The translations under genes and the position numbers were made by a program. The notes under the pieces are model-generated. The model worked only from the letters and a program-made list of their open reading frames with translations. It was not told where the DNA came from and ran no database searches. This document shows, in pieces, positions 3,911 to 64,000 of a stretch of 64,000 nucleotides of DNA. Source of the DNA: Clostridium sp. TW13 (GTDB lineage: Bacteria > Bacillota > Clostridia > Clostridiales > Clostridiaceae); assembly GCF_024345225.1 (NCBI RefSeq), contig NZ_BROD01000001.1:4092001-4156000 (forward strand). Direction: 5' to 3'. Each line of letters starts with the position of its first letter. Positions within the stretch are counted from its first letter, which is position 1.

Positions 3911-4183
3911 CAAGTGACAATTATCCTTGAATATATGGATAAGATTGAGTGTAATTGTGGAGAAATTCCCAGCCTTATTGCCAGAGACAAAAATGCACGA
4001 CTTGTTGGGAAGGTTCTTAGTCAAGCAGAATTTTATGGGCGATATCCATGTCATCGTGTGGTAAATCATGCTGGAAGGTTGGTACCGTGGTGACAAGAAC
4101 AACGATTTCTGCTATTAGAAGAAGGTGTATCCTTTAAAGATGCAAATCATGTTGATATGAAGGGAAATCGGTGGCACTTTTAG
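3911..4183 (+). pseudogene. Alkyltransferase-like (MGMT/ATL) gene, broken
   Basis: Translation from 3911 gives an O6-alkylguanine alkyltransferase-like C-terminal domain. It shows a LIARDKNARLVGKVLS segment, the active-site-type motif PCHRVVN, and then HAGRLVPW followed by an in-frame TGA at 4091-4093. After this stop the same frame continues with QEQRFLLLEEGVSF and ends at TAG 4181. There is also a stop at 3908-3910 with no start or ribosome binding site after it, so the 5' end is lost as well. With PCHR the catalytic Cys looks present, so the ancestor could have been active or a short ATL protein. It sits behind the AraC-GyrI gene, as in Ada-type loci. Confidence 0.8.
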
Positions 4184-4275: not shown

Positions 4276-4451
4276 ATGGTTTTTACTATATGTATGTAAT
4301 TGGCTTAAAATAATAAATTTTAATTAGTACTCATGGATTTATATGCTATAATTGTACATATTACACAATGTTTTATGAAATTTAGACACTTGATTTTCAA
4401 AATATACGTATAATAATATGTATCGTGTAATTAATATTGGGGGGTGAAAAA

Positions 4452-4535
4452 ATGAAGACGATTCGTTTGAATCTAGGTTTTTTCTGTGGTAGTGCAGATT
4501 CAGGGAAGAAGCTCTATGCAGAATCAGTCTTATAG
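4452..4535 (+). CDS. Leader peptide ORF, 27 codons (attenuator copy 1)
   Basis: A short ORF with a GGGGGTG ribosome binding site starts at ATG 4452 and stops at TAG 4533-4535. Its peptide begins MKTIRLNLGFF and has no strong run of one amino acid, which argues against classical amino-acid attenuation. Its last 16 bases before the stop (4517-4532) are complementary to 4601-4616, and 4512-4521 is complementary to 4549-4558. The same layout precedes four other paralogues in the window. Translation is inferred, not shown. Confidence 0.6.
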   Translation: MKTIRLNLGFFCGSADSGKKLYAESVL

Positions 4536-4648
4536 ACAATGGCGATAACTGCATAGAGAATCTTTTAATCGCCTTTTTCATTCTAATTTTGAAATGTTAA
4601 TAAGGCTGATTTTGCATCTTTTACTTGACCATTTACGAAGTAAAGGAG
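4512..4648 (+). promoter_or_regulatory. Attenuator RNA with alternative stems and hidden Shine-Dalgarno (copy 1)
   Basis: Four pairings are visible. Proximal: CTCTATGCAG 4512-4521 with CTGCATAGAG 4549-4558. Distal: 4517-4532 with 4601-4616, 16 pairs including two G-U. A terminator-like hairpin GGCGAT 4541-4546 with ATCGCC 4568-4573 is followed by five T. The last is an anti-Shine-Dalgarno stem, 4617-4626 with 4638-4647, covering the AAAGGAG of the next gene. The proximal stem and the terminator-like hairpin are mutually exclusive. A ribosome stalled near the leader stop would block both proximal and distal pairings. Confidence 0.6.
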
Positions 4649-4657
4649 CAAATTAGA

Positions 4658-4921
4658 ATGAAGTATATAAATGCCACAGAGGTATTACCTTTTGACTTAC
4701 TTAGTGAAATTCAGAAATATATAGCTGGAGAAATATTATATATCCCGCAACCAGAGGGTAAAAAGAATTCTTGGGGAAGCAGAACTAGTACAAGACAAGA
4801 AATTATAACTAGAAACAAACAGATTAAATTAGAAAAAGAAAATGGTAGAAGTATTGAGGAGCTTATGATAAAATACAATCTATCTTATGATACAATTAAA
4901 AAAATCGTGTACTTAAAGTAG
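4658..4921 (+). CDS. Mor/CD3324-like small HTH regulator, copy 1
   Basis: An 87-residue protein of the clostridial CD3324 type. The pattern shared by all five copies here is an N-terminal LPxxLLxEIQxY helix, G-x-YxYxP, a WG pair, an RNxxI motif and a C-terminal helix-turn-helix (about residues 60-82) ending in S/T-IKKIV. This resembles the Mor transcription activator fold. The frame is open upstream to a TTG at 4625, but AAAGGAG at 4642-4648 and paralogue alignment fix ATG 4658. It is probably DNA-binding, with unknown targets. It is preceded by the leader ORF and attenuator and followed by a terminator, so it is monocistronic. Confidence 0.8.
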   Translation: MKYINATEVLPFDLLSEIQKYIAGEILYIPQPEGKKNSWGSRTSTRQEIITRNKQIKLEKENGRSIEELMIKYNLSYDTIKKIVYLK

Positions 4922-4933
4922 TATTAAAATATG

Positions 4934-4968
4934 AAACCTCTGTGTGTTAAAACTTGCAGAGGTTTTGT
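4934..4968 (+). terminator. Rho-independent terminator
   Basis: GAAACCTCTG pairs with CAGAGGTTTTG, just after Mor-like copy 1. Confidence 0.7.
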
Positions 4969-5090
4969 GCATAAAATGACTATAGAGATTTGTTACCTTT
5001 CGCTATAAAAAAATATAATTTAAAATATGAGCATGTACAGTTTTTGAAAAATGTGAGCTTAAAATTATTTATATTTTCGGAGGTAAAGTT

Positions 5091-5882
5091 ATGTTCAAAC
5101 AAGATAAGATAATTGATGATTGGAATAATTGTTCTGATGAGTACTTCAGCAAAACCAAATTTGATGAACTTTTTTTGGCTCTTGAGAAAGACCCCTATAA
5201 GGGTTTTCCCCATGCCATGGCAGAAATGATAAAAGAATATTATCCTGACTTAAAGGGAAAGAATGTTTGCGTTCCATCATGTGGTGACAACACCGCAGTG
5301 TTTGGTTTTTGTGCCTTGGGAGCAAACGTGACAGCTACAGATATTTCATACAAGCAAATTGAAAATGCACGAAAAGTTGCAGAACAAAAGAATTTAAACA
5401 TAAAGTATCATGTCTGTGACAGTATGAAACTGAATGAACTCTCAGATAATACGTATGATTTGGTTTATACTTCTAATGGTGTTCATGTTTGGATTAATGA
5501 TTTGAATGCAATGTATAGCAATATTTATCGTATATTAAAAAGGGGAGGTAAATACATACTTTTTGATACACATCCCTTTGTTCGACCTTTTGATAGAAAA
5601 GTTTATAAGGGAATTTTTGAGGTTATTAAACGTTATGAAGACCTGGGGCCATTCGGAGAAGTTCCAACTTTTGATTGGCGAATACAAGATTATGTGAATT
5701 CTTTGATTAAATCAGGCTTTACTATTGATAGAATGGAAGAATTTCATAGTGTTATTGAAGATATTCCAGACTGTAGCTACTTATTTGAAGAAGCAGATAT
5801 TAATCATGATAACTTCGATTGGCATAAGAATCCATGGGCTGCTTTACCTCAGTGTCTTGGATTATGCAGCCAGAAAGTTTGA
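5091..5882 (+). CDS. Class I SAM-dependent methyltransferase
   Basis: A 263-residue Rossmann-fold methyltransferase. Motif I is VCVPSCGDNTAVFGF (about residues 60-74), an unusual glycine-poor version of the E/DxGxGxG loop. Motif II has the acidic residue in VTATDIS, and the motif IV region is YDLVYTSNGVHVW, followed by a LKRGGKYILFDTHP strand. The start has a GGAGG site. The downstream AraC-methyltransferase fusion carries a related catalytic domain, so the two may share substrates. The acceptor is unknown; antibiotic or metabolite methylation are both possible. Confidence 0.85.
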   Translation: MFKQDKIIDDWNNCSDEYFSKTKFDELFLALEKDPYKGFPHAMAEMIKEYYPDLKGKNVCVPSCGDNTAVFGFCALGANVTATDISYKQIENARKVAEQKNLNIKYHVCDSMKLNELSDNTYDLVYTSNGVHVWINDLNAMYSNIYRILKRGGKYILFDTHPFVRPFDRKVYKGIFEVIKRYEDLGPFGEVPTFDWRIQDYVNSLIKSGFTIDRMEEFHSVIEDIPDCSYLFEEADINHDNFDWHKNPWAALPQCLGLCSQKV

Positions 5883-6018
5883 AAATAAGCATAATCATAT
5901 AGTAGACCTTTTCTATTTAAACCGTTGGTATCACTAGATTTAAGGCAGGTCATAGGATTATATATCGTATTATATCTTAAAACTAAAGGAAACTGTCAAT
6001 TATTTATATATTATACAA

Positions 6019-18165: not shown

Positions 18166-18825
18166 CTATTTTATATTGTTAACATTCTTTAGAATATCCT
18201 CGAGTTTTTCTACAGATACCATTCTTTCATTACACTTCTTACTATCTAAGCAGATATCAAAACCTAGTGATTTGTATGCACCTTCACCCATATTAGATGT
18301 CTTACAGACAGGGGACACAAAGGCAACCTCATCTTCTTTTCCGATATGCTTGCAAAGAGCACAAATATGAGTGTTATTTGTACCATAATTTCGAATTCTA
18401 CATGCCATTCCTATAAGTTTATCATCCATGCTATAGGCTACAAATAATTTGTTTATAGATTCATCAACCCATCCTAGATATACGTTGTTTGCTTCTTGCG
18501 CATCTGCAGCAGGTAGTTTCAATTTCTTTTCTTTTTTAAATAATCTACTAATTTGAGCATTCGTAATTTTTGGCATTCCGTATACATATTGCTTTAATTC
18601 TGCTAAGTATTTATCAATGCGAGCCGAGTTATCTATTTCATTAATATCAAGTAGAGTGCTTTCTTCTTCAGATAAGTTTGAAAAAGTAGCCCACATTTTT
18701 TCTTGTATATATGCCTTGTTGGCCTCAATAATATCAGTATCCACACACCCTTTAAAAGTATTGTTTAAATCATTTAGGCATTTTTTTATATAATTATATT
18801 CATGCTGTTTTATAAAAGCTTCCAT
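18166..18825 (-). CDS. FusB/FusC-family EF-G-binding protein
   Basis: A 219-residue member of the FusB/FBP family, whose proteins bind EF-G and release it from ribosomes stalled by fusidic acid. The N-terminal helical bundle (residues 1-130, FIKQHEYNYIKKCLNDL through AQISRLFKKEKKLKLP) is followed by the C-terminal zinc domain with the treble-clef cysteines ICALCKH, VCKTS and ICLDSKKCNERM. All four zinc ligands are visible, so it should be functional. AAAGGAG precedes the start. A Mor-like regulator with an attenuator lies about 265 bp upstream on the same strand. It may confer intrinsic fusidic acid tolerance. Confidence 0.85.
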   Translation of the reverse strand: MEAFIKQHEYNYIKKCLNDLNNTFKGCVDTDIIEANKAYIQEKMWATFSNLSEEESTLLDINEIDNSARIDKYLAELKQYVYGMPKITNAQISRLFKKEKKLKLPAADAQEANNVYLGWVDESINKLFVAYSMDDKLIGMACRIRNYGTNNTHICALCKHIGKEDEVAFVSPVCKTSNMGEGAYKSLGFDICLDSKKCNERMVSVEKLEDILKNVNNIK

Positions 18826-19090: not shown

Positions 19091-19369
19091 TTATGAGCCT
19101 AGAAGTCTTTCTTGTGTTATGATTCTTCTAATGCTTTTTTCTGAGAGGTAATACTCGTGAGTAAGTTCATCAATAGTAGATCCACTGATGTATTTTTGAT
19201 AAATCTCATTATTTCTTACCTTAAGACTATTTCTTATACCACTCTTTTCACCCCAGGCTACATGAGTATCATCCTTCCTAGGGACATAAAGATATTTTCC
19301 ATCTACATATTGTTGTATTATCTTAACGATATCTTCTGGCAACACATCTTGTGCTTTTGCATATTTCAT
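19091..19369 (-). CDS. Mor/CD3324-like small HTH regulator, copy 2
   Basis: A 92-residue paralogue beginning MKYAKAQDVLPEDIVKIIQ, with GKYLYVP, VAWGEKSG, VRNNEIY and a C-terminal helix-turn-helix ending LSEKSIRRIIT. The ribosome binding site (CTCCTTT at 19377-19383 on the plus strand) lies inside a possible hairpin. It is preceded by a leader ORF (19473-19559). The FusB-like gene is next on the same strand with no strong terminator between, so read-through is possible. It is closest to copy 4 by the VAWGE motif. Confidence 0.8.
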   Translation of the reverse strand: MKYAKAQDVLPEDIVKIIQQYVDGKYLYVPRKDDTHVAWGEKSGIRNSLKVRNNEIYQKYISGSTIDELTHEYYLSEKSIRRIITQERLLGS

Positions 19370-19379
19370 TTCCTTACTC

Positions 19380-19481
19380 CTTTACTCTTAACATAGTATT
19401 AAAGCAAAGAATACAAAAAAGCTATGTGTTACAGAACCTAAAACATGTACGCGTTTCAGCTAATCTACCATCTTAGGCTCT
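19380..19481 (-). promoter_or_regulatory. Attenuator RNA with alternative stems (copy 2)
   Basis: Read on the minus strand, the leader's last codons AGAGCCTAA (19481-19473) pair with TTAGGTTCT (19441-19433). An earlier leader segment TCAGCTA (19498-19492) can pair with TAGCTGA (19462-19456). CTTTGCTTT (19409-19401) pairs with AGAGTAAAG (19388-19380), overlapping the AAAGGAG. The geometry matches copies 1, 3, 4 and 5 although the sequence differs. Confidence 0.5.
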
Positions 19482-19559
19482 AAACAAAGCATAGCTGACT
19501 TTGTGTAGTCTTTGCAAAGAGCAATCTGATGTAAAGCTGAATATACTATTGCTATTCAT
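19473..19559 (-). CDS. Leader peptide ORF, 28 codons (attenuator copy 2)
   Basis: A short ORF with a perfect AGGAGGTG site about 7 bases upstream. It begins MNSNSIFSFTSDC and ends with LFRA then TAA. The stop codon is part of the segment that pairs with the distal complement. Bases 19560-19727 between this leader and the next gene hold nothing else that I can support. Confidence 0.6.
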   Translation of the reverse strand: MNSNSIFSFTSDCSLQRLHKVSYALFRA

Positions 19560-21853: not shown

Positions 21854-21910
21854 ATGAGATCACAACTTTTAGAACGTAATGAACTTAATGTATTTGTACA
21901 AAGTCTGTAA
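21854..21910 (+). CDS. Leader peptide ORF, 18 codons (attenuator copy 3)
   Basis: AAGGAG precedes ATG 21854. The peptide is MRSQLLERNELNVFVQSL with TAA at 21908-21910. Its last codons (21895-21909) are shared between two alternative pairings. Confidence 0.65.
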   Translation: MRSQLLERNELNVFVQSL

Positions 21911-22015
21911 GTATGATATACAGTTTGTACAGCGGGAACAAATATACTAAACTTTAATAGTAAAGATCATATATGCAGACTTTGTCTCTTTAATTTGTAA
22001 TATATATTTAAGGAG
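21895..22015 (+). promoter_or_regulatory. Attenuator RNA with alternative stems and hidden Shine-Dalgarno (copy 3)
   Basis: Proximal: TGTACAAA (21895-21902) with TTTGTACA (21924-21931). Distal: ACAAAGTCTGTA (21898-21909) with TGCAGACTTTGT (21974-21985), 12 pairs including one G-U. Immediately next, CTCTTTAA (21986-21993) pairs with TTAAGGAG (22008-22015), the Shine-Dalgarno. Proximal and distal pairings compete for the same leader bases. Confidence 0.65.
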
Positions 22016-22024
22016 CTAAGCGTT

Positions 22025-22294
22025 ATGAAGTGTGCAAAAATTGAAAGAATTTTACCTGATAATCTACTTAAAGAAATTCAAAAGTATATTCAAGGTGAAT
22101 ATATATATGTTCCATATCAATTGAAAGAAAGAAAAAAATGGGGAGAACATTCAGGAAGTCGAGCGAACATACAAGCTAGAAATGAAAAAATACGTACTAA
22201 GTATAAGAATGGATATAAGGTTAAAGACTTGGCTGAAGAATTTTATCTTTCTGTAGAGAGTATAAAGAAAATTGTATATGTAAGAAATAAATAG
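22025..22294 (+). CDS. Mor/CD3324-like small HTH regulator, copy 3
   Basis: An 89-residue paralogue, nearly identical in plan to copy 5: both have LKEIQKYIQGEYIYVP-like and RxKWGExSGSR segments, RNEKIRTKY, LAEEFYLS and SIKKIVY. AAGGAG at 22010-22015 sets the ATG at 22025, and it is hidden in the attenuator stem. The C-terminal helix-turn-helix implies DNA binding. The gene is monocistronic, with its own promoter, leader ORF and terminator. Confidence 0.85.
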   Translation: MKCAKIERILPDNLLKEIQKYIQGEYIYVPYQLKERKKWGEHSGSRANIQARNEKIRTKYKNGYKVKDLAEEFYLSVESIKKIVYVRNK

Positions 22295-42742: not shown

Positions 42743-42769
42743 ATGAAAAGATATGTTATGTGTGCATAG
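42743..42769 (+). CDS. Leader peptide ORF, 8 codons (attenuator copy 4)
   Basis: The ORF encodes MKRYVMCA and ends at TAG 42767-42769. GGGGG lies about 15 bases upstream. The stop codon is inside the left arm of both alternative stems. Confidence 0.55.
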   Translation: MKRYVMCA

Positions 42770-42850
42770 CAAAGGCTATTGCGCATTAAATAATAATTTA
42801 AGATAAATGTAGCCTTTGCTCAATCCTAAAATGAAATTTAATTTAGGAGG
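42761..42850 (+). promoter_or_regulatory. Attenuator RNA with alternative stems and hidden Shine-Dalgarno (copy 4)
   Basis: Proximal: TGTGCATAGC (42761-42770) with GCTA-T-TGCGCA (42775-42785, one bulge). Distal: AGCAAAGGCTA (42768-42778) with TAGCCTTTGCT (42810-42820), 11 perfect pairs. Anti-Shine-Dalgarno: TCCTAAA (42824-42830) with TTTAGGA (42842-42848). Proximal and distal stems exclude each other. Confidence 0.65.
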
Positions 42851-42858
42851 AGCATTTA

Positions 42859-43134
42859 ATGAGCTATGCAAATGCAAGGGAGATATTTCCTGAAGATATA
42901 TTGGAAATAATTCAAAATTACGTTGATGGTGAATATATTTATATACCAAAGAAAGAAGAAAATAGAGTGGCATGGGGTGAACTTACTCAATGTAAGCAGG
43001 AGCTTCAAGCTAGAAATGCTAAGATATACGATGATTATTTAATCGGGATATCTATACAAAGTCTTTCACAAAAGTATTATTTATCACCCAAAACTATACA
43101 AAGAATTGTTTCAGAAAAAAAGAAGATCGGATGA
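42859..43134 (+). CDS. Mor/CD3324-like small HTH regulator, copy 4
   Basis: A 91-residue paralogue: MSYANAREIFPEDILEIIQ, VDGEYIYIP, RVAWGELT, QARNAKIYDDY and a C-terminal helix-turn-helix ending LSPKTIQRIVSE. It is most like copy 2. AGGAGGAG at 42845-42852 is well spaced from ATG 42859 and is half buried in a hairpin. It is preceded by the shortest leader ORF of the set. Whether it shares a transcript with the AraC-APH gene 145 bp downstream is unclear, since I see no strong terminator. Confidence 0.85.
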   Translation: MSYANAREIFPEDILEIIQNYVDGEYIYIPKKEENRVAWGELTQCKQELQARNAKIYDDYLIGISIQSLSQKYYLSPKTIQRIVSEKKKIG

Positions 43135-58755: not shown

Positions 58756-58854
58756 ATGAAATATCTACTAATGGAATTTGAACAACTTAAAGTACTCTGT
58801 GCAAAGCCTGTAAATATGGTGTATGGTGACAATTTGCACAGAGATAATAGATAA
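58756..58854 (+). CDS. Leader peptide ORF, 32 codons (attenuator copy 5)
   Basis: GGAGGTG precedes ATG 58756. The peptide begins MKYLLMEFEQLKVLCAKPV and stops at TAA 58852-58854. Codons 14-19 form the left arms of both alternative stems, and the proximal right arm is also inside the ORF. Confidence 0.6.
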   Translation: MKYLLMEFEQLKVLCAKPVNMVYGDNLHRDNR

Positions 58855-58925
58855 AGTCACCTTTAGAGATTATAATCATATTGTGCAGGCTTTGCCTCTT
58901 AAATTTAAAAGATAAATTTAAGGAG
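58795..58925 (+). promoter_or_regulatory. Attenuator RNA with alternative stems and hidden Shine-Dalgarno (copy 5)
   Basis: Proximal: CTCTGTGCAA (58795-58804) with TTGCACAGAG (58834-58843). Distal: GCAAAGCCTGTA (58801-58812) with TGCAGGCTTTGC (58884-58895), 12 pairs. Anti-Shine-Dalgarno: CTTAAATTT (58898-58906) with AAATTTAAG (58914-58922). A further GGTGAC/GTCACC hairpin (58825-58830 with 58856-58861) is followed by TTT and mirrors the terminator-like stem of copy 1. Confidence 0.65.
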
Positions 58926-58934
58926 CTGAGGGTT

Positions 58935-59204
58935 GTGAAATATGTAAAGGTTGAGACAGTTTTACCAGATAATTTAATTAAAGAAATTCAGAAGTATATT
59001 CAAGGTGAGTATATATACATTCCATCTCAAGCAGAAAAAAAGAAGAGATGGGGAGAGAACTCTGGAAGTCGTAGTTATATACAAGGTAGAAATGAAGAAA
59101 TAAGAAATAAGCATTCTAATGGATTTAAGATAAAGGATTTAGCAGAAGAATTCTTCCTTTCTATAGATAGTATAAAGAAAATTGTGTATACAAAGGATAA
59201 GTAA
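58935..59204 (+). CDS. Mor/CD3324-like small HTH regulator, copy 5
   Basis: An 89-residue paralogue starting at GTG 58935 (VKYVKVETVLPDN), because AAGGAG lies at 58920-58925 and the other copies begin at the same point. The pattern is LIKEIQKYIQGEYIYIP, KRWGENSGSRS, GRNEEIRNKH, LAEEFFLS and SIKKIVYT. It is closest to copy 3, a recent duplication. It has its own promoter, leader ORF and terminator (59211-59244). Confidence 0.85.
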   Translation: MKYVKVETVLPDNLIKEIQKYIQGEYIYIPSQAEKKKRWGENSGSRSYIQGRNEEIRNKHSNGFKIKDLAEEFFLSIDSIKKIVYTKDK

Positions 59205-60165: not shown

Positions 60166-60211
60166 AAATAAGCAAGTAATTCAACAATATAAATGAATTA
60201 CTTGCTTATTT
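60166..60211 (-). terminator. Rho-independent terminator overlapping the surface-protein stop
   Basis: A perfect 18-bp stem, 60166-60183 with 60194-60211 (core AAGCAAGTAATTCA/TGAATTACTTGCTT), contains the TAA of the leftward surface-protein gene in its arm. Confidence 0.85.
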
Positions 60212-63200
60212 TTTATGTTTAAATCTTTTTATAATTATACTCGCAACTAATGAAGAAGTAAATAAAGTGAGTACTATTATTATAAGTTTCTTAGAATAAC
60301 CCAAGGTAGTATTTTTAATAACATCTTTAGTAGAATTTTTTTTCTCTAAATCTTTTTTATCAGATATTTTAGAGTTTTCTTTTACTATATCTAAAGTGTT
60401 TTCTGATTTTCCTAAGTTAGAAGTAATATTATCTGAGTGTTTTTTTAATGTATAGTATGTTCTCTTTGTTGGAATTGGTTGTTTTGTGGTTATATTTGGT
60501 TTAATAGTTGGCAATGGATTTGACTTACTTGGAACTATAGCAGGAGTTGGCTTAGGCTTAGGAGTTGGTACTAAAGTAGTAGCAGTAATAATGCTGCTCC
60601 AAGTGCCTCCAATAGCTCTAATTCTGTACTTGTAAGTTGTGTTGCTATCCAAGCCAGTGTGAGAATAGTGAGTATCAGTACCAACGTTAAGAATTACTCC
60701 ATTAACCTCAATCTCATACCCAGTAGTGTTAGCAACTGAGTTCCAGCTCACCTTAATACTATTAACTGTAGCAATAGCAGTTATATTAGTAGGAGCAGGA
60801 ATTACAACTGGATCTGGAGGAGGAGGAGGTGGCAAGGTAGTAGCAGTAATAATGCTGCTCCAAGTACCGCCAATAGCTCTAACTCTGTACTTGTAAGTTG
60901 TGTTGCTATCCAAGCCAGTGTGAGAATAGTGAGTATCAGTACCAACGTTAAGAATTACTCCATTAACCTCAATCTCATACCCAGTAGCGTTAATAACTGA
61001 GTTCCAGCTCACCTTAATACTATTAACTGTAGCAATAGCAGTTATATTAGTAGGAGCAGGAATTACAACTGGATCTGGAGGAGGAGGTGGTGGCAAGGTA
61101 GTAGCAGTAATAATGCTGCTCCAAGTACCGCCAATAGCTCTAACTCTGTACTTGTAAGTTGTGTTGCTATCCAAGCCAGTGTGAGAATAGTGAGTATCAG
61201 TACCAACGTTAAGAATTACTCCATTAACCTCAATCTCATACCCAGTAGCGTTAATAACTGAGTTCCAGCTCACCTTAATACTATTAACTGTAGCAATAGC
61301 AACTATATTAGTAGGAGCAGGAATTACAACTGGGTCTGGAGGAGGTGGTGGTGACAAGGTAGTCCCTGAAATATCGTTACTCCAAATACCACCAACAGCG
61401 CAAACCTTATAAGTATGATTAGTATTGCTGTCTAAACCTGTATGAGTATAAGATGTGTTGTTTCCTATGTCAACAGGTGTACCGTTATCAATCTGAATTT
61501 TATAGCTTGTAGCTCCAGGCACAGAATCCCAACTTACTTTAATGCTATCAATTGTAGGTTCAGTATTTATATTTGTGGGAGCAAGTAATAGGGTATTGGC
61601 GGTAAAAACACTGCTCCAAGTGCCATCAACGGCCCTCACTCTGTACTTGTAAGCTGTGTTGCTATCTAAACCAGTGTGAGAATAGTGAGTATCAGTACCA
61701 ACGTTAAGAATTACTCCATTAATTTCAATCTCATACTGAGTAGCATTTGTTACTGGATTCCAACTCAAATAAATATTACTAACATCGGAAATGGTGTTTA
61801 TATTAGTAGGAGCGAATAAAAGTGTAGTAGATGGAATGTCATTACTCCAAATACCACCAACAGCGCAAACCTTATAAGTATGATTAGTATTGCTGTCTAA
61901 ACCTGTATGAGTATAAGATGTGTTGTTTCCTATGTCAACAGGTGTACCGTTATCAATCTGAATTTTATAGCTTGTAGCTCCAGGCACAGAATCCCAACTT
62001 ACTTTAATGGTATTGGTTGTAGGTTCAGTATTTATATTTGTTGGAGCAAGTAATAGGGTATTGGCGGTAAAAACACTGCTCCAAGTGCCATCAACGGCCC
62101 TCACTCTGTACTTGTAAGCTGTGTTGCTATCCAAGCCAGTGTGAGAATAGTGAGTATCAGTACCAACGTTAAGAATTACTCCATTAATTTCAATCTCATA
62201 CTGAGTAGCATTTGTTACTGGATTCCAACTCAAATAAATATTACTAACATCGGAAATGGTGTTTATATTAGTAGGAGCGAATAAAAGTGTAGTAGATGGA
62301 ATGTCATTACTCCAAATACCACCAACAGCGCAAACCTTATAAGTATGATTAGTATTGCTGTCTAAACCTGTATGAGTATAAGATGTGTTGTTTCCTATGT
62401 CAACAGGTGTACCGTTATCAATCTGAATTTTATAGCTTGTAGCTCCAGGTACAGAATCCCAGCTTATTTTAATACTATCAGTTGTAGGTTCAGTATTTAT
62501 ATTTGTTGGAGCACTCATTAAAGTTGTAGCTGTTGTAGTGTTGCTCCATGGACCAACCTTATCATTTAGTTTTGCTCTGATTTTGAATGTGTAGTCTGTA
62601 TTACTAGTTAATCCTTTTGCATCATAAGCTAAGTCAGTTCCAACATTGATAGGTATATCATTATTAACTTGAATTTCATAACTTGTAGCGTTAGTTACAG
62701 AATCCCAAGCCACAGTAATATTATCTACATCGGAAGCTGTTCTTATATTTTCAGGTTCTAGTAGTATTAGGTTATCAGATATAGTAGTATAGTCTGGACT
62801 GTTTATATTACCTGCTATTGGATTAGAAAAATAACCGATTATAGTATTATGAGTTATGACGTTATTTTGATTTAAGTTATTACTTGGTATTTTAATTCCA
62901 TTAAGGCAAGCATTATTGTTGTTGGTTATTTCATTGGAATCAATAATTGAACCAGATGCCAAATAATCTAGAAATATTCCTGAATTTAAGTTTGAATTCC
63001 AACCCCATATATTACGACCATTAGTTGCAGTAGCTAATCCAACGTCTGCAATTTTATTATTCAAAATCTTTAAATTGGTGGAATAAAGCAAGTATATTCC
63101 ATCAAAGTCTACTTGGCTTATAGTGTTGCTATCTATAGAATCGTCTGGATTATTGGAATCATCTTCCAAGTTAGATATTTCTATACCGAAATATCTTGAA

Positions 63201-64000
63201 TTAGTAATAGTATTATGACTGATTTTGAATCCATGAGCTCTATAGCTCGATGGAGTAGCTCCTTGATCATTTCTTACTACACAAATTCCAGATGCCAAAG
63301 TATTATCTATAGTATTATACATAATAGTATTATCGTAAGCAGGAACTGTACATCTAATTCCATTTGTATCTGAATTACTAATAGAGTTGTAGCTTACGTC
63401 AGAATTTCTACATAGATAAAATGCAATTCTATTACCAGTTATAATATTATTTGTTATACTTCCGTTTATTTGTTTTAAAAATACTAATCCATCTTTTTCA
63501 GAAGAGTTTAAATTAGAATGTATAATGTTATTTTGTATTACATTATGATCACTTAAATTTTTATTTTCAACAGCATCAAGATCAGTCACACCAATTCTTC
63601 CCCAAAATGTTACCGCTGAATTATTGCAAGAGCCATATATTATACAATCCTGAAGAGTAACATAATCTGCATCTCTAGAAGTAAAAGCTGCAGCACCATT
63701 TTTGTTATTTATAGTTAAGTTTGAAACCTCTACATTACTTCCTGTTACTTCTATATTATTATTCCCAGAGTTTAATTGTATAATTTGTGTGTGTTCTTTA
63801 GATTCCCCATAAATAATTACATTTGGACTGGTGATTCTTATACTGCTATTAAGGTAATAGTCGCCATTTTTTATATAAAATTTTGTTTCTCCTTCTGCCA
63901 TTTTTTGATTAATAATATCGTCCAAAGGAGTAGTGGCTGTATCAGCAGGACTGATAACATACCATGATGAATCAATAGTGTAGCTTGATAAAAGATTTAT
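60206..64000 (-). CDS. Beta-helix / nine-FN3 surface protein, 5' end outside window
   Basis: The frame is open to base 64000 and 25 more residues precede TTG 63925, so the N-terminus is beyond the window. Visible parts in order: a right-handed beta-helix (NosD/PbH1 type) over about 430 residues with repeated SNEITNNN and YNTIDNT-like turns; nine fibronectin type III domains (WDS/WNP...TATTL), the last three joined by PPPPPDPVVIPAPTN linkers; a Lys/Pro-rich stalk; and a C-terminal transmembrane helix with a KRFKHKK tail. It is thus anchored by a helix rather than sortase. It probably binds or cleaves polysaccharide. The FN3 DNA is highly repetitive. Confidence 0.85.
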   Translation of the reverse strand: MNLLSSYTIDSSWYVISPADTATTPLDDIINQKMAEGETKFYIKNGDYYLNSSIRITSPNVIIYGESKEHTQIIQLNSGNNNIEVTGSNVEVSNLTINNKNGAAAFTSRDADYVTLQDCIIYGSCNNSAVTFWGRIGVTDLDAVENKNLSDHNVIQNNIIHSNLNSSEKDGLVFLKQINGSITNNIITGNRIAFYLCRNSDVSYNSISNSDTNGIRCTVPAYDNTIMYNTIDNTLASGICVVRNDQGATPSSYRAHGFKISHNTITNSRYFGIEISNLEDDSNNPDDSIDSNTISQVDFDGIYLLYSTNLKILNNKIADVGLATATNGRNIWGWNSNLNSGIFLDYLASGSIIDSNEITNNNNACLNGIKIPSNNLNQNNVITHNTIIGYFSNPIAGNINSPDYTTISDNLILLEPENIRTASDVDNITVAWDSVTNATSYEIQVNNDIPINVGTDLAYDAKGLTSNTDYTFKIRAKLNDKVGPWSNTTTATTLMSAPTNINTEPTTDSIKISWDSVPGATSYKIQIDNGTPVDIGNNTSYTHTGLDSNTNHTYKVCAVGGIWSNDIPSTTLLFAPTNINTISDVSNIYLSWNPVTNATQYEIEINGVILNVGTDTHYSHTGLDSNTAYKYRVRAVDGTWSSVFTANTLLLAPTNINTEPTTNTIKVSWDSVPGATSYKIQIDNGTPVDIGNNTSYTHTGLDSNTNHTYKVCAVGGIWSNDIPSTTLLFAPTNINTISDVSNIYLSWNPVTNATQYEIEINGVILNVGTDTHYSHTGLDSNTAYKYRVRAVDGTWSSVFTANTLLLAPTNINTEPTIDSIKVSWDSVPGATSYKIQIDNGTPVDIGNNTSYTHTGLDSNTNHTYKVCAVGGIWSNDISGTTLSPPPPPDPVVIPAPTNIVAIATVNSIKVSWNSVINATGYEIEVNGVILNVGTDTHYSHTGLDSNTTYKYRVRAIGGTWSSIITATTLPPPPPPDPVVIPAPTNITAIATVNSIKVSWNSVINATGYEIEVNGVILNVGTDTHYSHTGLDSNTTYKYRVRAIGGTWSSIITATTLPPPPPPDPVVIPAPTNITAIATVNSIKVSWNSVANTTGYEIEVNGVILNVGTDTHYSHTGLDSNTTYKYRIRAIGGTWSSIITATTLVPTPKPKPTPAIVPSKSNPLPTIKPNITTKQPIPTKRTYYTLKKHSDNITSNLGKSENTLDIVKENSKISDKKDLEKKNSTKDVIKNTTLGYSKKLIIIVLTLFTSSLVASIIIKRFKHKK
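60572..61354 (-). repeat. Tandem 261-bp FN3 repeats (three copies)
   Basis: The marker ATGCTGCTCC begins at 60591, 60852 and 61113, giving a 261-bp (87-codon) period. Each unit codes one FN3 domain plus its proline linker and is almost identical at DNA level, so it was duplicated or homogenised recently. Confidence 0.85.
61355..62510 (-). repeat. 465-bp two-domain FN3 repeat
   Basis: ATACCACCAACAGCG starts at 61386, 61851 and 62316, an exact 465-bp (155-codon) period covering an A-type plus a B-type FN3 domain. Two full units plus a third B-type domain are present. Confidence 0.85.

Follow-up and report, generated by a model that had tools for sequence, protein, structure and literature searches.

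The question raised by this locus, which is contained in a stretch of 64,000 nucleotides of DNA from Clostridium sp. TW13 (the window), is whether the RNA preceding a small regulator gene would allow a translating ribosome to control the expression of this gene, and at which position the ribosome would have to pause. An earlier note had described a leader ORF, a proximal and a distal stem, a pair of terminator-like arms and a stem hiding the Shine-Dalgarno (SD) sequence of the regulator, all of which are recovered by direct reading and by script (Table 1), and it had proposed that a small DNA-binding protein is subject to ribosome-controlled attenuation, for which conservation, covariation, the leader ORFs and the downstream genes provide good support. 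We consider it likely that the locus, henceforth termed copy 1, harbours a translational attenuator built on a three-way RNA switch, which controls the regulator and probably senses antibiotic-induced stalling, and which at loci elsewhere controls a resistance gene directly.

Table 1. Positions of the features of copy 1, of its neighbouring genes and of the sister leaders in the window.
Feature	Positions	Strand	Basis and remarks
Leader ORF SD, GGGGGG	4439-4444	+	Read from sequence
Leader ORF, 27 codons, MKTIRLNLGFFCGSADSGKKLYAESVL followed by stop	4452-4535	+	Sequence and script; stop codon 4533-4535
P1 left arm, 5' part of region 1, CTCTATGCAG	4512-4521	+	Covariation
Distal 1:3 stem left arm, 3' part of region 1, TGCAGAATCAGTCTTA	4517-4532	+	Covariation
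P2 left arm GGCGAT, pseudoknotted with P1	4541-4546	+	Covariation
P1 right arm, region 2, CTGCATAGAG	4549-4558	+	Covariation
P2 right arm ATCGCC, then TTTTT	4568-4573	+	Covariation; T5 mostly not conserved
Region 3, right arm of 1:3 stem, TAAGGCTGATTTTGCA; also outer anti-SD arm	4601-4616	+	Covariation and folding
Inner anti-SD arm, pairs with 4638-4647	4617-4626	+	Covariation and folding
Region 4, SD GGAG (4645-4648) plus flanks	4638-4656	+	Pairs with 4617-4626 (inner) and 4606-4615 (outer)
CD3324-family (Mor-like) regulator gene, 87 aa	4658-4921	+	NF040785, E=6.4e-30
Terminator-like hairpin AAACCTCTG/CAGAGGTTTT 3' of regulator	4934-4966	+	Sequence
SAM-dependent methyltransferase	5091-5882	+	Pfam PF08241
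Sister leader, FusB-linked class	19369-19559	-	Before CD3324 gene 19091-19369 and FusB-type gene 18166-18825
Sister leader	21854-22027	+	Before CD3324 gene 22025-22294; R1 E=3.7e-10
Sister leader, compact class	42743-42861	+	Before CD3324 gene 42859-43134; R1 only E=0.2
Sister leader	58756-58937	+	Before CD3324 gene 58935-59204; R1 E=4e-22

The stem covering the SD (3:4) extends outwards from its inner helix by the pairs 4606-4612/4650-4656 and 4614-4615/4648-4649 and thus reaches into the right arm of the distal 1:3 stem, so that this arm competes between leader and SD. On its other side, the distal stem ends at the stop codon of the leader ORF, as had been noted before, with position 4532 directly adjoining the stop. 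The described pairings exceed what would be expected by chance. We aligned 30 leaders, taken from Clostridiaceae, Lachnospiraceae, Paenibacillus and other groups, over the interval between region 1 and the start codon. In this alignment, P1 is paired in 94.8% of cells, and 6 of its 11 pairs show double changes. The corresponding values for the distal 1:3 stem are 82.5% and 12 of 16 pairs. The P2 arms are paired in 97.3% for four pairs and in 84.5% for the other two, and five of these six show double changes. The 3:4 stem, which covaries as well, is paired in 84.0%. None of 500 shuffles equalled the observed covariation score, a significance that is inflated by related sequences in the alignment, and slid controls were paired in 26-49%; clustering at 85% identity, which reduces the set from 30 to 24, leaves a similar picture of the pairing.

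P1 and the 1:3 stem are mutually exclusive, since they occupy the common alignment columns 10-15, and both covary. This competition is reflected in the joint variation of regions 1, 2 and 3, which read GCAAAG/TTTGC/CTTTGC, ACAAAG/TTTGT/CTTTGT or GCAGAATC/CTGC/GATTTTGC, and in loci carrying ACAAAG in region 1 (L187, L099 and L005) both the right arm of P1 and region 3 are altered to match. Of all individual observations, this triple change points most strongly to a switch. A search of the whole window against Rfam 15 returned no match above a gathering cut-off and, ranked by E-value, nothing plausible in the interval 4400-4700 or in six homologous loci. Judged by its homologues, copy 1 is a member of a conserved leader-RNA family that is unlisted in Rfam and no local curiosity. 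A covariance model built on the 30 homologues (R1), whose E-values are rough, recognizes copy 1, itself part of the training set, with E=1e-22 and has located further copies elsewhere.

The arms that had been taken for a terminator-like hairpin at 4541-4573 are better described as the pseudoknot helix P2. They flank the right arm of P1 and interleave with this stem, which defines an H-type pseudoknot, and they covary as GGCGAT/ATCGCC, GGCGGT/ACCGCC and GGCGAC/GTCGCC. Transcription attenuation, where these arms and the ensuing T5 would constitute an intrinsic terminator that either P1 or the distal stem would disrupt, would be in line with the 6-bp stem followed by TTTTT in copy 1 and with the resemblance of the leaders L140, L142, L144 and L150 to terminator/antiterminator pairs. 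However, the loop of such a hairpin would measure 21 nt and contain the P1 right arm, the covarying topology is that of a pseudoknot and the SD forms the end of the conserved switch, all of which renders this mechanism quite improbable. Moreover, a T-rich stretch follows the right arm of P2 in only 4 of the 30 homologues, and termination is thus not the conserved mechanism. The four leaders mentioned above are distant CD3324 leaders, in which the antiterminator arm GATCTGCCCACC complements the SD-start region of the leader itself (GGAGGTGGGTTAGATGATC), and their apparent logic suggests initiation-sensing transcription attenuation. Another set of leaders, unrelated in sequence (L146, L148, L155 and L164), seems by eye to follow the same choice between 1:3 and 3:4, possibly as a result of convergence, with the strands GCGTTGGCTC, GAGCCAACGC and ACGTTGG, found at or after the SD, located upstream of the CD3324 start.

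The involvement of a ribosome is indicated by the leader ORFs. Reading frames with their own SD, which start 11-60 nt 5' of region 1 and read into it, are found in 51 of 57 elements, compared to 17.5 expected from shuffled 5' flanks. They are in frames 0, 1 and 2 in 36, 5 and 10 elements, respectively, and their occurrence in all three frames argues against a common arrest peptide. Among the leaders, no conserved stalling codon or peptide was found and no amino acid is over-represented. What is conserved is translation into region 1 and not the peptide. Within the close relatives of copy 1, the peptide is seemingly constrained, with the N-terminal RLNL[GA][FY]F as its sole conserved part and 44% of single-nucleotide codon differences being synonymous versus 22% expected, in pairs that are not independent. 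A stalling Ala, Ser or Thr at codon offset -12 was dropped as a candidate since it is present in only 24% of frame-0 leaders. The leaders preceding Cfr in L228 and Lsa in L245 both contain Thr-His at codons -12/-9 from region 1, which is near the predicted stall position and not a family-wide property.

These features also bear on the proposal of a metabolite riboswitch, whose pseudoknot would bind a small molecule, or of an amino-acid attenuator, whose codons would sense charged tRNA. Both are very improbable: H-type pseudoknots are common among riboswitches and the primary sequence is well conserved, but most of the conserved bases are accounted for by the three-way pairing, the leaders lack a prominent amino acid and occur in all three frames, and the downstream genes described below are without a common pathway, their shared trait being protection from drugs acting on the ribosome.

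The predicted consequences of ribosome position are illustrated by partition-function folding, in which a mask of 31 nt, the assumed footprint of a ribosome, was slid along the leader while the pseudoknot was ignored. Free copy 1 RNA forms P1 with a probability of 0.98 and its SD is unpaired with a probability of 0.01. With the mask near the leader start, P1 forms and the SD is hidden, whereas with the mask over region 1 or nearing the stop, neither the full P1 nor the 1:3 stem is formed and the SD is equally hidden. Only when the leading edge of the mask is 3-6 nt inside P1 does the 1:3 stem form and the SD become loosened, which in copy 1 corresponds to P-site codons 16-17, where the probability of an unpaired SD rises to 0.21-0.26 compared to at most 0.03 elsewhere. 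These codons are thus the predicted position of the ribosome for loosening of the SD. Averaged over 34 homologues, this probability amounts to 0.29 at edge +3, compared to 0.13 in the free and 0.08 in the covered state, and the value at edge +3 exceeds that of the free RNA in 27 of them (Wilcoxon p=3.7e-5), whereas the release is barely visible in L032, L098 and L112. The predicted release remains incomplete (0.2-0.3), since the inner anti-SD stem stays in place.

Compared to the earlier note, the folding moves the decisive ribosome away from the stop codon, where it would mask region 1 and block both P1 and the distal stem with the SD remaining hidden. It also inverts the role assigned to the distal stem, whose opening had been regarded as the key step: the SD is predicted to be loosened when a ribosome further upstream lets this stem form.

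An opposite polarity, where little or no translation of the leader would leave region 1 free to pair with region 3 and turn the gene on, so that loss of translation would be sensed, could draw on the leaders being without a conserved stall site and on the stability of the isolated 1:3 duplex (-21.3 kcal/mol), which is more stable than either P1 (-14.6 kcal/mol) or P2 (-8.0 kcal/mol) alone. Since the free RNA is predicted as P1 plus 3:4, and since P1 has the chance to form before its competitors as the RNA is transcribed, with P2 locking it further, we regard this arrangement as rather unlikely.

In the stall-dependent attenuator that we favour, the default state would consist of P1, the 1:2 helix, locked by P2 in the H-type pseudoknot, with the 3:4 stem masking the SD of the regulator and expression being low. 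A ribosome completing the leader normally would also cover region 1 and leave 3:4 intact. In contrast, a ribosome stalled just before region 1, in copy 1 with its P site around codons 16-17, would block P1 and permit pairing of the 3' part of region 1 with region 3. Formation of this distal stem would disrupt the stem over the SD in its outer half, and the regulator would be translated. The stall would probably be caused by a ribosome-targeting antibiotic, which would likewise act as inducer. The CD3324 protein would then probably act in trans on a neighbouring gene, which is the methyltransferase in copy 1 and frequently a FusB-type EF-G-binding protein elsewhere, and which is often located beyond a terminator-like hairpin, whereas at other loci the leader would govern a resistance gene directly.

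The genes located behind the element are informative in this respect. R1 detects it in 57 of 117 Clostridiaceae genomes and in 13 of 398 genomes sampled from the phylum. Inspection of 25 matches, mostly those not adjoining a listed CD3324 gene, has placed the element before CD3324 genes in nine cases, Cfr in five, Mef-like MFS transporters in seven (one of them degraded, L247) and before an Lsa-type ABC-F protein, an APH-like kinase, a serine hydrolase and trpB in one case each. The match before trpB (L246, E=8e-5) resembles a T-box leader and was counted as false. Cfr and Lsa score above the curated NCBIfam cut-offs (683 versus 468 bits and 767 versus 750 bits, respectively), while the family matches of the Mef-like and FusB-type proteins are below theirs. 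In Bacillales, genes for FusB-type EF-G-binding proteins are found directly 3' of the element (L260, L263-L266). In Clostridium, the first same-strand gene 3' of CD3324 is FusB-type in 35 of 112 loci compared to 2 of 112 upstream, and a GNAT acetyltransferase is found 3' in 16 compared to 2 of 112 upstream, an asymmetry whose Fisher p=6e-10 is optimistic since the loci are related. Other downstream genes encode hydrolases, GNATs and methyltransferases. With the same switch preceding other CD3324 regulators as well as Cfr, Lsa and FusB-type genes, it is probably a widespread antibiotic alarm.

The same distribution weighs against autoregulation, where the CD3324 protein would bind the leader of its own transcript and the ORF in this leader would be incidental. 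Although CD3324 genes follow most copies and structured leaders of genes for nucleic-acid-binding proteins are often autoregulatory, the element also precedes Cfr, Lsa, Mef-like and FusB-type genes, including in G153 and G158, two genomes with R1 matches that are outside those with a CD3324 match, and leader ORFs are far more abundant than expected. We thus view autoregulation as highly improbable.

The window illustrates the recurrence of this arrangement. It contains five of the ten CD3324 genes of the genome, and each of the five is preceded by a leader ORF with alternative stems. The leaders of the FusB-linked class, assessed with the same pair counts, are 97-100% paired and too conserved for covariation to show either way. 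The neighbours encode the methyltransferase next to copy 1, the FusB-type protein (18166-18825), an alpha/beta hydrolase (22469) and an AraC-APH fusion (43201). In copy 1, the methyltransferase is a probable target or partner of the regulator. The block 4428-5901, which comprises the leader, the CD3324 gene and the methyltransferase, matches Clostridium oryzae (L041) at 92.4%. This match ends at both edges, as expected of a horizontally moved cassette, and by this comparison the block looks like such a cassette, inherited as a unit. Elsewhere in the window, a degraded O6-methylguanine-DNA methyltransferase-like gene is located at about 3935-4180, with YPCHRVVNHAGRLVPW in one frame followed by a stop, and the minus strand contains, at 60206-63925, a large ORF of surface type whose fibronectin-like repeats (repeat families D1 and D2) are nearly identical.

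The regulator had been described as Mor-like. Its protein belongs to the CD3324 family (NF040785, 103.1 bits, curated cut-off 65), whereas its score against Pfam Mor (PF08765) of 22.4 bits is below the gathering cut-off of 24.9. In an AF2 model (pLDDT 86.5), the top Foldseek matches are Mu C (9l0x, E=0.13) and Mu Mor (1rr7, E=0.30), both of which are weak, and the protein thus weakly resembles the phage Mu Mor/C activators. Genomes contain up to 12 CD3324 copies. A terminator-like hairpin follows 85 of 183 CD3324 genes compared to 28.5 expected, a frequency that would be easier to reconcile with in-trans control of the following gene by the regulator than with simple read-through. In three loci (L087, L101 and L108), CD3324 genes form tandem pairs with a long intergenic region also before the second gene. 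The interval between CD3324 and FusB-type genes in L017, L018, L020 and L057 contains a strongly conserved long hairpin (GATGATTATT..TTAC / GTAATAATAATCATC-TTTT) and, 5' of it, the palindrome-like TTTCATTG-N9-CAATGAAA, which could be a candidate operator for the CD3324 protein.

In the classical erm scheme, the ON helix is formed by 2:3, whereas it would be 1:3 in the family described here. Also distinct from the erm/cat type are the P1/P2 pseudoknot in place of a simple 1:2 hairpin, the lack of a conserved arrest peptide and the use of one RNA family before many genes, mostly a regulator. The attenuators of erm/cat (ermC, ermB) and fusB of pUB101 share with our element a leader ORF, mutually exclusive stems, an SD that is hidden by default and downstream genes for resistance to translation drugs (PMC8274638, PMC12493156). 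FusB of S. aureus pUB101 is subject to translational attenuation induced by fusidic acid, and the regulation of FusB homologues is unknown according to a 2025 review (PMC12493156). The uORF attenuators of ARE-ABCF genes (C. difficile cplR, B. subtilis vmlR and lmo0919) resemble the element in their uORF, anti-SD, translational attenuation and clostridial hosts, but their published description, with uORFs of 3-4 codons and a terminator, sets them apart from the longer leader with a pseudoknot observed here (PMC10201436). The uORFC-6-1 (hflX) motif of Bacillales, a structured uORF leader before a ribosome-rescue factor, differs in its gene and in the description of its structure (PMC8632094). 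This element is not mentioned in the accessible parts of two genome-wide motif papers (one of them PMC8632094), nor is it described in the partly covered literature on attenuation in CD3324, yraL, cfr and fusB leaders.

A further parallel concerns the WhiB7/WblC circuit of Actinobacteria, where a uORF leader that senses several drug classes controls a transcription factor for intrinsic resistance to inhibitors of translation (PMC12121999). The layout with a leader before a CD3324 regulator and resistance-like neighbours resembles this circuit, and these neighbours would be under the control of the regulator. It falls outside the WhiB7 system, since its regulator is CD3324/Mor-like and not WhiB, and it also differs in a conserved switch that resides at the SD instead of early transcription termination and in several paralogues that each adjoin their own target-like gene. 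We attribute even weight for and against the broader view that the pseudoknot leader family acts as general translation-stress sensor of Bacillota and as counterpart of WhiB7, where drugs would induce either resistance genes or Mor-like regulators, the latter of which would activate neighbouring resistance genes. Such a sensor would span Clostridium and its relatives, Paenibacillaceae and other Bacillales, and directly control cfr, lsa, fusB-type, mef-like and aph-like genes. If true, it would explain how clostridial and paenibacillar homologues of Cfr, Lsa and FusB are silenced and switched on, it would assign a function to CD3324 as a large unstudied regulator family, and it would provide a searchable RNA signature pointing to unrecognised inducible resistance genes, in the form of a rare RNA module with three covarying strands, whose switch is testable mutation by mutation.
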